From an uncultured Arthrobacter sp. (GTDB lineage Bacteria; Actinomycetota; Actinomycetes; Actinomycetales; Micrococcaceae), in NCBI RefSeq assembly GCF_947495145.1, contig NZ_CANLXP010000001.1, positions 236,172 to 300,171 on the forward strand: a stretch of 64,000 nt of DNA, given 5' to 3'. Within the stretch, counting starts at the first letter, position 1, and each line of letters opens with the position of its first letter. Made by a program: the position numbers and the translations under genes. Positions 15,751 to 35,302 of the stretch are shown here, piece after piece. The notes below the pieces were generated by a model that was not told the DNA's origin, did not search any database, and saw only the letters and a program-made list of their open reading frames with translations.

Positions 15751-17517
15751 ATGCGTGAACAGGTCAAAGCCGGCAGCGGGTCATTCACCGAGATCCGGGT
15801 CCACGGCATCGGGGACCATGAGTATTACACCAGCCTCGGGCACCCGATTGAAAAGCGGCTGAACGCCTGGGTGCAGGTTGCGGCGCCTCCGCCGCTGCCG
15901 GATCACCGGTTGCGCATCGTCAACTGGTCCCGATCCCGCCGCCGGAGAACGGGCTTCCTCTGGTACCTCGCTTTCCCCTTCACACTGGCCAATGTTGCGG
16001 GGCGCATGGAGCCCGTTCGCGCCGGTACGGGGCGGACAGCGCTGCTGAGAGCAGCGGTGGGGGTAGTTGCGGCAGTTCTCACCGTTTCGCAGCTTGCCTG
16101 GGTGATCGTTCTCGGGGAGACAGTCCTTGACTACCTGAATTCTCCGCCGGCCCTCATGCGGGCGGTGCCGCTGATCGCCGCAGCCCTGCTCACGGCATGG
16201 CTGGCGTACCGGTACCGGAGCGTGGTGATGGCTCAGTCAGGACAGCATCGGACCCATATTCCGCCGCTGGTGCATTCGGCCATCGTTCTTTGCGTGGGCA
16301 TTCTGCTGACCGTTGCTGCACCCGCCCAGCTCGGCCACGAGGGCTGGCCCTCCACGCCCACGCCTGAAGCCGGGTCCCGCCTGGATGCCATGGCGCTGTG
16401 GATAGCGTTGAGCGTCAGCATCGCGTTCGCCGCGGCGCTGGTGCTGGCCATCAGCAGCAACCTGGGCTCAGGTGGTCGGGACGGCCCCGGCGCGTCCCTC
16501 GCCGCAGCCGGGGTGCTGCTCGCCGTCTCCGTTCCACTCATGCACGCCGTCACGGCCCTGTTTCGCATGGTTCTGGACAACCTGCTGGGTTACGTCACCG
16601 GACTGTTCGGCTGGGTGCCGGGGTCGCGGCCCTATCTTGGCATCCTGCTTTCCTACGACGATCCGGCCGATCCCGGCGACAGCAGGCTCGATCTCTTTCC
16701 GTTCCTCGCGCTGGTCGCCGCTGCGGGCGCTCTGGTGGCCACCGCCGTCGTGCTTGCCTCTGTCCGGGGACCGGGACTGCCGCCGGCGACCGGCGGGAAG
16801 GCCGCGCGTGGGCGCTGGTGGCATGAGGTGTGCGCCCAGGCGCCGCGACTGCTGCCCCTGATCCTCCCGCTTGCGGTGGTGCTGGCGCTGATGGCGATGA
16901 CGACGGCGGTCGCCCTCGGCGAAGGCAGGCTCGGTGGCCCGTGGTTGGCCCTGGCAATCCTGGTGCTGCAGGTCGCCGGTGCGGTGGTGGTGCTGGTTGT
17001 CCTGCTTGGGCAGCTTCACCCGCTCCGGGAAGTACTGGGGAAGATCGCCGATGTCGCAGGCTTCTGGCCCGTCCGGGACCACCCGCTGGCGGGGTCGTCT
17101 TACCGGGACGCAGCAGTGGACGGGATCGCTGGACTCGTGTCCCGGCATGCCGGGGGCGAGGTGGTGCTCGTGGCCCACAGCCAGGGGTCGGTGCTATGCG
17201 CATGGCTGGTGGCACAAGCGCGGCCCGGGCAAGAGCGCCCGCATCTTGTTACGGCGGGTTCGCCGCTTGCCTCGGTGTATGTCCAATTCTTTCCGGCTAC
17301 CTTTACGGAGGCATTGCTGGCCGATGTTGCCGCAGGCACGCGAACCTGGACCAATTATTGGCGGATGACAGATCCGGTCGGATTTCCCATCCCACACGCG
17401 TCAAACCGCGAACTACCGGACCCACGCGCAGACGGAATTGTCCGCAGCCACACCGATTACTGGACCGAGCCGGAAATCGTGGCCAACGTCGCGGAGCTCG
17501 CCCGGCGCCGTGCCTGA
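15751..17517 (+). CDS. Multi-pass membrane protein with split alpha/beta-hydrolase motifs, function unknown
   Basis: A 588-residue protein that I cannot assign to a characterised family. The N-terminus (EIRVHGIGDH, 14-23) and the C-terminal region (VLVAHSQGSVLCAW, with nucleophile-like S477; then LVTAGSPLASVYVQFF) look like the first strand and the nucleophile elbow of an alpha/beta hydrolase of the lipase/DUF-type group. Between them, about residues 95-430, are around eight hydrophobic helices separated by short loops. So the hydrolase fold seems to be interrupted by a membrane domain. The ATG lies 3 bp after the uvrB stop without a clear ribosome-binding site, so translation is probably coupled to uvrB. 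Confidence 0.75.
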   Translation: MREQVKAGSGSFTEIRVHGIGDHEYYTSLGHPIEKRLNAWVQVAAPPPLPDHRLRIVNWSRSRRRRTGFLWYLAFPFTLANVAGRMEPVRAGTGRTALLRAAVGVVAAVLTVSQLAWVIVLGETVLDYLNSPPALMRAVPLIAAALLTAWLAYRYRSVVMAQSGQHRTHIPPLVHSAIVLCVGILLTVAAPAQLGHEGWPSTPTPEAGSRLDAMALWIALSVSIAFAAALVLAISSNLGSGGRDGPGASLAAAGVLLAVSVPLMHAVTALFRMVLDNLLGYVTGLFGWVPGSRPYLGILLSYDDPADPGDSRLDLFPFLALVAAAGALVATAVVLASVRGPGLPPATGGKAARGRWWHEVCAQAPRLLPLILPLAVVLALMAMTTAVALGEGRLGGPWLALAILVLQVAGAVVVLVVLLGQLHPLREVLGKIADVAGFWPVRDHPLAGSSYRDAAVDGIAGLVSRHAGGEVVLVAHSQGSVLCAWLVAQARPGQERPHLVTAGSPLASVYVQFFPATFTEALLADVAAGTRTWTNYWRMTDPVGFPIPHASNRELPDPRADGIVRSHTDYWTEPEIVANVAELARRRA

Positions 17518-17553: not shown

Positions 17554-17559
17554 TACGAT
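17554..17559 (+). promoter_or_regulatory. -10 box for the terC transcript
   Basis: TACGAT ends 8 nt before the first base of riboswitch helix P1, so transcription would start right at the aptamer. Confidence 0.5.
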
Positions 17560-17567
17560 GGGACCAA

Positions 17568-17668
17568 CGTAGGGGAGTATCCTTTCGCGCTACGAACGTC
17601 AACACGCAGGCCGACGACGGCCAGCCGGGCGTAGCGGCCGCACACAGAATGCGGCGGAGAGACTTGCG
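17568..17668 (+). ncRNA. yybP-ykoY (Mn2+) riboswitch
   Basis: The closing helix P1 is CGTAGG (17568-17573) with CTTGCG (17663-17668), including two G-U wobbles. The conserved internal loop GGAGTA (17574-17579) follows the 5' strand, and GAGA precedes the 3' strand, as in the family. A 7-bp helix CGCTACG (17588-17594)/CGTAGCG (17630-17636) encloses GTCAACACG and a GGCCG-ACGA-CGGCC hairpin. The family senses Mn2+ and is typically found in front of terC/alx and mntP genes, exactly the situation here. Downstream, CCTT-CGA-AAGG (17681-17691) can cover the Shine-Dalgarno of terC, suggesting control at translation. Confidence 0.88.
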
Positions 17669-17698
17669 AATCCCGTTGTACCTTCGAAAGGGTCCCTT

Positions 17699-18733
17699 GT
17701 GCTTGAACTGCCCCTTGCCTTCCAGATAGGCACCTTTGTCGTCCTGGGCCTCGTGCTCCTGTTCGACCTTCTCCTCGTCGTGAAGCGTCCGCACGAGCCT
17801 TCCATGAAGGAAGCCGGACTGTGGGTGTCGTTCTACGTCGGCCTCGCACTGATCTTCGCGGTCATCATGTTTGCGGTTACGGGCCCTGAATTCGGCGGCC
17901 AGTTCGTTGCCGGGTGGGTGACTGAGTACAGCCTGAGCATCGACAACCTGTTTGTCTTCATCATCATCATGGCGAGGTTCTCGGTACCCCGTAAGTACCA
18001 GCAGGAAGTGCTGATGGTGGGCATCATCATCGCGCTGATCCTGCGCGGAATCTTCATCCTCCTCGGCGCCGCGCTGATCAGTAACTTCTCCTGGATCTTC
18101 TACATCTTCGGCGCCTTCCTCCTCTGGACCGCCTACCATCAGGCAAAGGATTCCGGCGAGGAGGAAGAGGACAAGGAAAACAAGCTCATCGCCAAGCTGC
18201 GCGGTGTCCTGCCGATGAGCGAACACTACGACGGCAATAAGATTCGCACCGTGGTCAACGGCAAAAAGGTCTTCACCCCCATGCTCATCGTGTTCGTCAC
18301 GATCGGTCTGACCGACCTGCTGTTTGCGGTGGATTCAATTCCGGCGATCTTCGGTCTGACCGAGAGTGCGTTCATCGTCTTCACCGCGAACCTGTTCGCG
18401 CTCATGGGTTTACGCCAGCTCTACTTCCTCCTGGGTGGCCTGATGACCCGCTTGGTGTTCCTCAAGCACGCGCTCTCGATCATCCTCGCCTTCATCGGTG
18501 TGAAGCTGATCCTGCATGCGATGCATGAGAACGAACTGCCCTTCATCAATGGCGGCCAGCACATTGAGTGGGCCCCCGTGATCCCGACCTTCGCTTCGCT
18601 CGGCTTCATCGTTGCGACGATTGTGGTTGCGGTCATCGCCAGCCTACTGAGCCCAGCCGGCAAGCGTGCCAAGCTCGACGCCGAACTGGCAGCGGATGCC
18701 GAGCGCGCCCGTACCGGCGGGCCCGAATCCTGA
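17699..18733 (+). CDS. terC: TerC/Alx family membrane protein (likely Mn2+ exporter)
   Basis: A 344-residue integral membrane protein with about nine hydrophobic segments and the acidic family signatures SIDNLFVFIIIMARF and GLTDLLFAVDSIPAI, which carry the intramembrane Asp residues. TerC/Alx proteins are linked to Mn2+ export and, in some bacteria, to loading of secreted metalloenzymes. The yybP-ykoY riboswitch directly upstream supports a manganese role over tellurite resistance. The GTG start at 17699 has GAAAGG 8 nt upstream inside a possible sequestering hairpin. A bidirectional terminator follows. Confidence 0.93.
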   Translation: MLELPLAFQIGTFVVLGLVLLFDLLLVVKRPHEPSMKEAGLWVSFYVGLALIFAVIMFAVTGPEFGGQFVAGWVTEYSLSIDNLFVFIIIMARFSVPRKYQQEVLMVGIIIALILRGIFILLGAALISNFSWIFYIFGAFLLWTAYHQAKDSGEEEEDKENKLIAKLRGVLPMSEHYDGNKIRTVVNGKKVFTPMLIVFVTIGLTDLLFAVDSIPAIFGLTESAFIVFTANLFALMGLRQLYFLLGGLMTRLVFLKHALSIILAFIGVKLILHAMHENELPFINGGQHIEWAPVIPTFASLGFIVATIVVAVIASLLSPAGKRAKLDAELAADAERARTGGPES

Positions 18734-34552: not shown

Positions 34553-34577
34553 ATCCGTGCATAGGATGGAAGTTCAA

Positions 34578-34613
34578 GGGCCTCCCGCGCGCCGTCAAGG
34601 CTGCGGGGCCCAG
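34578..34613 (+). terminator. Probable whiA terminator
   Basis: GGGCC-TC-CCGC pairs with GCGG-GGCCC around a 14-nt loop (a 9-bp stem with a 2-nt bulge), 26 nt after whiA. No U tract. Confidence 0.45.
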
Positions 34614-34631
34614 CCTGGAGAACAGCAACAG

Positions 34632-34647
34632 CCGGGCTGATGCCCGG
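34632..34647 (+). other. Hairpin in the sodA leader
   Basis: CCGGGC-TGAT-GCCCGG, a perfect 6-bp stem with a tetraloop, ends 17 nt before the sodA Shine-Dalgarno. Possible mRNA-stability element. Confidence 0.4.
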
Positions 34648-34675
34648 AACAGCAATACAGGACATGGAGGATTTC

Positions 34676-35302
34676 GTGAGCGAATACGTACTGCCTGAAC
34701 TCAACTACGACTACTCGGCGCTTGAACCGCACATCTCTGCGCGGATCATGGAGCTGCACCACAGCAAGCACCACGCAGCGTACGTCAAGGGAGCCAACGA
34801 CGCCCTCGCGCAGCTCGCCGAGGCCCGCCAGAAGGGGGACTTCACCAACATCCCCAAGCTGTCCAAGGATCTCGCCTTCCACACCGGCGGACACATCAAC
34901 CACTCCGTGTTCTGGAACAACCTTTCTCCGGACGGCGGCGACAAGCCTGTTGGCGAGCTCGCGGCCGCAATTGATGATGCCTTCGGTTCGTTCGACGCCT
35001 TCCGTGGACACTTCAACGCCGCCGCGCTGAGCCTGCAGGGTTCCGGCTGGGCCCTGCTTGCCTGGGAGCCCATCGGCGGCAACCTCGTCATCGAGCAGCT
35101 CTACGATCAGCAGGGCAACGTTCCCGTTGGAACCACCCCTCTGCTCATGCTGGATATGTGGGAGCACGCGTTCTACCTCGACTACGTGAATGTCAAGGCC
35201 GACTACGTCAAGGCATTCTGGAACATCGTCAACTGGGCCGATGTGGCCCGCCGCTTCCAGGCTGCCCGCAGTAACGCATCAGGTCTTATCACCCTGTCCT
35301 GA
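34676..35302 (+). CDS. sodA: Superoxide dismutase, Mn/Fe family
   Basis: A 208-residue cytoplasmic dismutase. Metal ligands are expected at H28 ([13 protein letters not shown]), a histidine in [12 protein letters not shown], and the Asp and His of [11 protein letters not shown]. The Gln in LQGSGWALL is at the position typical of Mn-type enzymes, so Mn is favoured, which fits with a Mn-responsive terC riboswitch elsewhere in the window. The GTG at 34676 follows TGGAGG by 5 nt; an in-frame ATG at 34640 would add residues lacking family similarity. Confidence 0.94.

Follow-up and report, generated by a model that had tools for sequence, protein, structure and literature searches.

The terC locus and its leader

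In the window, the 64,000-nt stretch of DNA from an uncultured Arthrobacter sp. that we analyzed, an RNA element of the yybP-ykoY type stands directly 5' of terC and thus in the leader of a gene for a membrane protein of manganese homeostasis (Table 1). The part played by TerC proteins in that process has been controversial, and the recent work cited in PMC13274385 points to manganese export. Between uvrB and the terC leader, an open frame on the forward strand (15751–17517) encodes a 588-aa protein with no Pfam match. Farther along the same strand, the open frame at 34565–35302 encodes an iron/manganese superoxide dismutase. The earlier note had tied this enzyme, as a manganese-type dismutase, to the terC leader; Pfam names only an iron/manganese family, we found no link between the two genes, and we dropped the connection in view of the ≈17 kb that separate them.

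Table 1. Features of the terC locus, in window coordinates
Feature	Position	Strand	Remarks
Putative -10 promoter box, TACGAT (TANNNT)	17554–17559	+	RNA start would be ≈17565–17567
yybP-ykoY-type aptamer, three-way-junction form	17565–17670	+	R1 match, 104.4 bits
P1 5' strand, CGUAGG	17568–17573	+	6 bp with 17663–17668
L1 5' strand, GGAGUA	17574–17579	+	
P1.2 5' strand, UCC	17580–17582	+	Pairs with GGA, 17656–17658
Junction where helix P2 would be, UUUCG	17583–17587	+	4–8 nt in aligned members
P3.1 5' strand	17588–17598	+	7 bp, 17588–17594/17630–17636; closing CG/CG pairs, 17597–17598 with 17626–17627
L3 bulge, UCAACAC	17599–17605	+	7 nt
P3.2 hairpin	17606–17625	+	One A-A mismatch in the window; both-sided changes in 6 of 7 pairs
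P3.1 3' strand	17626–17636	+	CCGG motif starts at 17625
P4 hairpin, length varies	17637–17655	+	From genus and wider alignments
P1.2 3' strand GGA, L1 3' strand GAGA (17659–17662), P1 3' strand CUUGCG	17656–17668	+	
Shine-Dalgarno region and GTG start, GAAAGGGUCCCUUGUG	17686–17701	+	Predicted to pair with the aptamer 5' strand in the free fold
terC, GTG start, 344 aa, TerC/Alx family	17699–18733	+	PF03741, 172.5 bits; TIGR03718 'R_switched_Alx', 370 bits (cutoff 246.4)

The aptamer consists of two legs, P1.1-L1-P1.2 and P3.1-L3-P3.2, that meet at a junction with P4. Its landmarks (P1, GGAGUA, GAGA, and the inner 7-bp helix) lie where the earlier note had placed them, and the covariance model R1 and the covariation within the genus agree on these positions. 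The span of 17568–17698 proposed for the whole element does contain the aptamer, which ends at ≈17668; the remainder, 17669–17698, is a linker carrying the Shine-Dalgarno (SD) sequence. We found neither a P2 helix nor a four-way junction, a stretch of 4 to 8 nt joining P1.2 to P3.1 in all 40 aligned members, the Escherichia coli alx leader included. The three-way-junction form is not new, because the Streptococcus pneumoniae mgtA yybP-ykoY aptamer is reported as one in a review (PMC9495176).

Covariation and the putative metal site

All 38 genus genomes searched encode TerC-like proteins, and the leader was found at each of the 30 genus loci that we fetched. Alignment A1 comprises 28 genus leaders and leaves out L007, which has a long P4, and L013, whose leader repeats that of L012. 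In this alignment, 96.1% of the cells of a 33-pair structure can pair, and the covariation score of 0.161 (0.112 when shuffled) was reached by none of 500 shuffles; the count of further pair types, one of five measures, was unexceptional (reached by 73 of 500). RNAalifold independently arrives at this fold in its main helices. Alignment A2 extends to 40 members, the alx leader and 39 fetched loci, and, being aligned to the model and hence leaning towards it, gives both-sided changes in 27 of 33 pairs and a covariation score of 0.561, compared with 0.172 for shuffled alignments and at most 0.090 for slid partners.

Among these 40 members, every helix includes pairs that change on both sides, the invariant CG/CG pairs excepted. 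In P1 such changes occur in one of the six pairs within the 28 genus leaders and in three of six across the wider set. All three pairs of P1.2, constant within the genus, change on both sides in the wider set, as do all seven outer pairs of P3.1, the two closing CG/CG pairs of which are constant.

In yybP-ykoY riboswitches, Mn2+ sits between L1 and L3, the Lactococcus lactis site being formed by G9, U39, C40, A41, U44, and C45 (PMC9190785). An invariant adenosine (A41 in L. lactis, A48 in Xanthomonas oryzae) is described as setting the preference for Mn2+ through its N7, and A10 as the cross-helix A-minor base (PMC6754395). In the aligned leaders, the L1 sequences GGGAGUA (5') and GAGAC (3') are invariant in 40 of 40 members, the window and alx included, and positions 1, 2, 3, 6, and 7 of the L3 bulge read U, C, A, A, and C in all 40. 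The window has a 7-nt L3 with an adenosine in third place, closed by the CG/CG pairs. Judged by its place in the sequence, A17601 corresponds to the manganese-sensing adenosine, A41 of L. lactis and A48 of X. oryzae, and A17576 to A10, a residue match assigned in the present analysis. The L3 core agrees with the L. lactis site residues U39, C40, A41, and C45, whereas position 6 is A rather than the U44 of L. lactis.

A covariance model for the alx/terC form and its distribution

R1 is a covariance model built from the 28 genus leaders, the window's own sequence (L001) among them, and its E-values are rough. It scores 104.4 bits on the window and, outside its training set, finds the E. coli alx leader at 31.8 bits (E 5e-6 over 82 kb), aligning the alx core base by base; its match on L041 is the same alx leader. 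The E. coli mntP leader is missed, and therefore R1 covers the alx/terC form and not the class as a whole.

Within the family, R1 matches 182 of 197 genomes and 31 of 32 genera (E ≤ 0.1), which assigns a leader of the Mn2+ class to terC in most of the Micrococcaceae-family genomes sampled. At E ≤ 0.01, the genomes matched number 53 among the 248 of the order sample, 37 of those 53 from other families, and 13 among the 396 of the phylum sample. The family, order, and phylum scans were run with strict filters at the cost of weak matches, and a lack of matches outside the family therefore carries little weight. Named records sharing the leader, among the matches listed, are predominantly Arthrobacter and other Micrococcaceae.

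The gene downstream is terC in 55 of 58 R1 loci (the best matches, with the window's own included); the three exceptions are L103, where the contig ends, L109, where no gene was identified, and L111. A 15-mer search, for which 80 of at least 118 matching stretches were listed, gave 43 R1-positive loci (E < 0.01) and 37 others. Among these listed matches, terC follows in 42 of the 43 R1-positive loci, as against 0 of 41 R1-negative places that share the 15-mer. Those 41 places fall in the 37 loci, fewer than 300 nt being examinable for four, and L121 and L178, whose R1 scores are weak, were counted as negative. The sets of 58 and 43 loci overlap in genomes and are not additive. Two R1 members precede genes for cation P-type ATPases, L111 (by Pfam) and L122 (by eye).

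The genome of the window encodes three TerC-like proteins and has a single R1 match, the window's. The two further genes, at G000:C5:117002-117964 and G000:C6:110259-111185, have 55% and 57% identity and no R1 match.

A Coriobacteriaceae MAG, RUG13877, carries numerous scattered copies of an inverted repeat (approximately ACATCGCGG...CCGCGATGT) followed by GTAGGGGAGTATCCCC, at loci L113, L125, L128, L138, L161, L169, L176, L180, L182, L183, L184, L187, and L190. R1 gave no match at these loci, and the repeat is more like one of the REP or MITE type.

Putative promoter and expression platform

Of 78 distinct leaders, 55 have a putative -10 box of the form TANNNT on the 5' side of the aptamer at a distance of exactly 11 nt, and 63 have one at a distance of 10 to 12 nt. 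No -35 box was established, and a simple promoter scan did not report the -10 box. Given this spacing, the RNA should start at P1, in agreement with the 5' end observed for the Corynebacterium glutamicum terC leader, which is placed 6 nt within its Rfam match (PMC3890552). The lowest-energy fold of the region adds an outer helix, 17551–17563/17671–17683, that we rejected as a general part of the element because its overlap with the -10 box makes its presence in the RNA improbable. Across 79 leaders (one of them a repeat), own upstream and tail segments have only a slight pairing advantage over swapped combinations, matched in 252 of 5000 permutations, and this excess stems mostly from the window's close relatives.

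The predicted free fold of the window leader pairs 17565–17576 and 17580–17586 with 17686–17705, covering the SD sequence and the GTG start; in the window's close relatives, the free fold places 19 pairs between the aptamer 5' strand and these sites. The predicted probability that the SD sequence is unpaired is 0.00 in the free fold and 0.39 with the aptamer enforced, and for the relatives L002 to L007 it is 0.00–0.08 and 0.38–0.71, respectively. The aptamer fold is predicted to be 11.7 kcal/mol less stable than the free fold, and the order of co-transcriptional folding would therefore need to favor the aptamer. For the window leader, as good an alternative helix arose in 198 of 20,000 shuffles, and among 43 start regions in the window, two of which are the terC start itself, one other scored better.

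Across the family, a comparison of 81 leaders with 113 other ribosome-binding regions gave no clear excess of an anti-SD strand. The mean percentile of SD complementarity was 0.40 for the aptamer 5' strand, a barely raised complementarity, and 0.51 for the 3' strand, which has none in excess of the comparison regions, with 3.7% of leaders below 0.05 for each; the window's percentile for the 5' strand is 0.08. The predicted SD-masking helix is thus strong in the window's close relatives and not conserved family-wide. In the distant actinobacterial leaders L102, L108, and L110, the P1 3' strand reads CCUCC and has the SD sequence GGAGG as its predicted partner, and L101 and L104 have a shorter version, CCUC.

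We also considered the local SD hairpin that had been suggested downstream of the aptamer and rejected it, since it does not rise above shuffles: mean SD pairing in 68 leaders was 0.518, compared with 0.554 in shuffled sequences, and 58 of 60 shuffle sets paired at least as well, although these shuffles retain the C-rich stretch before the SD sequence and so still allow pairing by composition alone.

No terminator-like site lies between the aptamer and the start codon, and control therefore most likely acts on translation. The same aptamer might instead be read out in transcription, with termination, either intrinsic or dependent on Rho, in the leader or the first part of terC. We regard this as rather unlikely: the L. 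lactis and X. oryzae members are described as acting on transcription, a reference title in PMC13274385 names Rho for mntP, and SD masking is not conserved across the family, but P1 is only 30 nt from the start codon. A weak terminator-like hairpin does occur at 17716–17732; the site near the start, however, lies inside the coding sequence and has 5 bp, and the two terminator-like sites found compare with 1.2 expected in shuffles.

Identity of the element and a proposed mechanism

The terC leader is best explained as a yybP-ykoY riboswitch for Mn2+ that acts in cis and has a compact three-way-junction form, a reading to which we assign a probability of roughly 0.85, the response to Mn2+ being part of what we infer. 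By its sequence, the Arthrobacter-type leader is a genuine but divergent member of this known class. The aptamer proposed in the earlier note is borne out by the R1 score, the covarying, conserved fold, the retained core bases of L1 and L3, the resemblance to the alx leader of E. coli, the linkage to terC, and the TIGR03718 assignment of its product; Mn2+ binding and a translational read-out are inferences from these computational observations. The kind of element is already known, and the terC leader adds one member to it. The open-licence papers searched included none on this leader in Arthrobacter.

The ligand could differ from Mn2+ alone. The aptamer might sense Ca2+ besides Mn2+, for which the S. 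pneumoniae mgtA aptamer, reported to have a higher affinity for Ca2+ than for Mn2+ (PMC9495176), is a precedent. Alternatively, it might respond to Mn2+ combined with alkaline pH, as the alx reporter is described as responding to alkaline pH too (PMC9603457). The two R1 members in front of cation P-type ATPase genes would suit such a reading, but all 40 aligned members retain the Mn-discriminating adenosine and the downstream genes are chiefly terC, and we consider it improbable.

The RF00080 covariance search (Rfam 15), proposed earlier as the check on class membership, gave no match in the window at the gathering score, in the 501 bases around the leader at E ≤ 10, or in the window's own genome at E ≤ 0.001. 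At E ≤ 1, it missed all 20 R1-positive loci tested; across 149 family genomes, 29 gave matches at this level and none exceeded the cutoff. The earlier note would have given up the class on such a result, which is indeed what the window yields; but the alx leader goes unreported at E ≤ 5 and the mntP leader reaches 41.6 bits against a cutoff of 45, and because both, described as Mn-responsive yybP-ykoY riboswitches (PMC9603457), also fail the gathering score, the negative result does not refute the class. In the RF00080 alignments, the structure line lacks the P1 pairs and the 3' half departs from the aptamer. That the leader is a conserved fold merely resembling yybP-ykoY and unrelated to it, as the silence of RF00080 in all 20 R1-positive loci and around the window leader might suggest, is very hard to credit, given that the alx leader is picked up by R1 and lines up with the model base by base through the core, and that the members share the L1 and L3 core bases. 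The terC RNA motif is a named motif of proteobacterial range. Between 17400 and 17900 we found no match to it among the other Rfam families at E ≤ 10, where the only match was a weak one to mir-138 (E 8.9) inside terC.

Taking the leader as a Mn2+ riboswitch, we propose that it would most likely turn on a manganese-handling membrane protein at high manganese, a direction suggested by the riboswitch class and the downstream gene. The terC mRNA would begin 1 to 3 nt before P1. At high Mn2+, the ion would bridge L1 and L3 and lock P1/P1.2, leaving the SD sequence and the GTG codon more accessible. The outcome would be synthesis of TerC, a membrane protein of the Alx type that would export Mn or deliver metal. 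At low Mn2+, in the window species and its closest relatives, the 5' strand (17565–17576, 17580–17586) would pair with 17686–17705 and hide the start. We suggest only tentatively, from the predicted folds, that in these relatives the ligand-binding 5' strand (P1, L1, P1.2, and junction) became the anti-SD strand, the platform having been rewired between the P1 strands. If so, the metal site and the ribosome site would compete for the same nucleotides without a separate expression platform, and the rewired platform, if real, would offer a small test case for the evolution of riboswitch output.

The current Rfam model overlooks the compact form, E. coli alx included, and manganese riboswitches are therefore probably under-annotated in Actinobacteria, an annotation gap that the present assignment helps to correct.

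Comparison with known systems

The L. lactis yoaB and X. oryzae riboswitches have L1 in common with the window, as well as an L3 of 7 nt whose third base is the Mn-sensing adenosine (UCAAUUC and ACAUACU, respectively); their crystal structures are four-way junctions with P2, and they are transcriptional, whereas in the window 5 nt replace P2. The leader of C. glutamicum cg2157 (terC), compared at the level of annotation, is likewise assigned to yybP-ykoY and stands at an actinobacterial terC gene (PMC3890552).

A second type of leader (L031, L034, L035, and L036) has the same GGGGAGUA and GAGAC core but differs in carrying GGGGAGUAG..GAGCGAGACC and in the 24 to 46 nt from GGGGAGUA to the L3 motif, compared with 15 to 26 nt in 122 R1 leaders, which leaves room for P2. 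These leaders precede genes with VIT1 domains (by Pfam for L035, by eye for the others), and R1 detects two of them, L035 (19.8 bits) and L036 (15.3 bits), but not L031 or L034. Second-type, yybP-ykoY-like leaders in other genomes of the genus and family score 17.8 to 23 bits with RF00080, within its E ≤ 1 set.

The E. coli alx leader, matched by R1 at 31.8 bits, has GGGGAGUA, CGUCA, CCGG, and GAGAC as the window does. Its 18 nt from GAGUA to CGUCA are too few to accommodate P2, the gene behind it belongs to the TerC family, and RF00080 (Rfam 15) misses this leader as well. It differs from the window leader in its longer P4, the sequence of P1.2, and a further 80 nt between the aptamer and the start codon.
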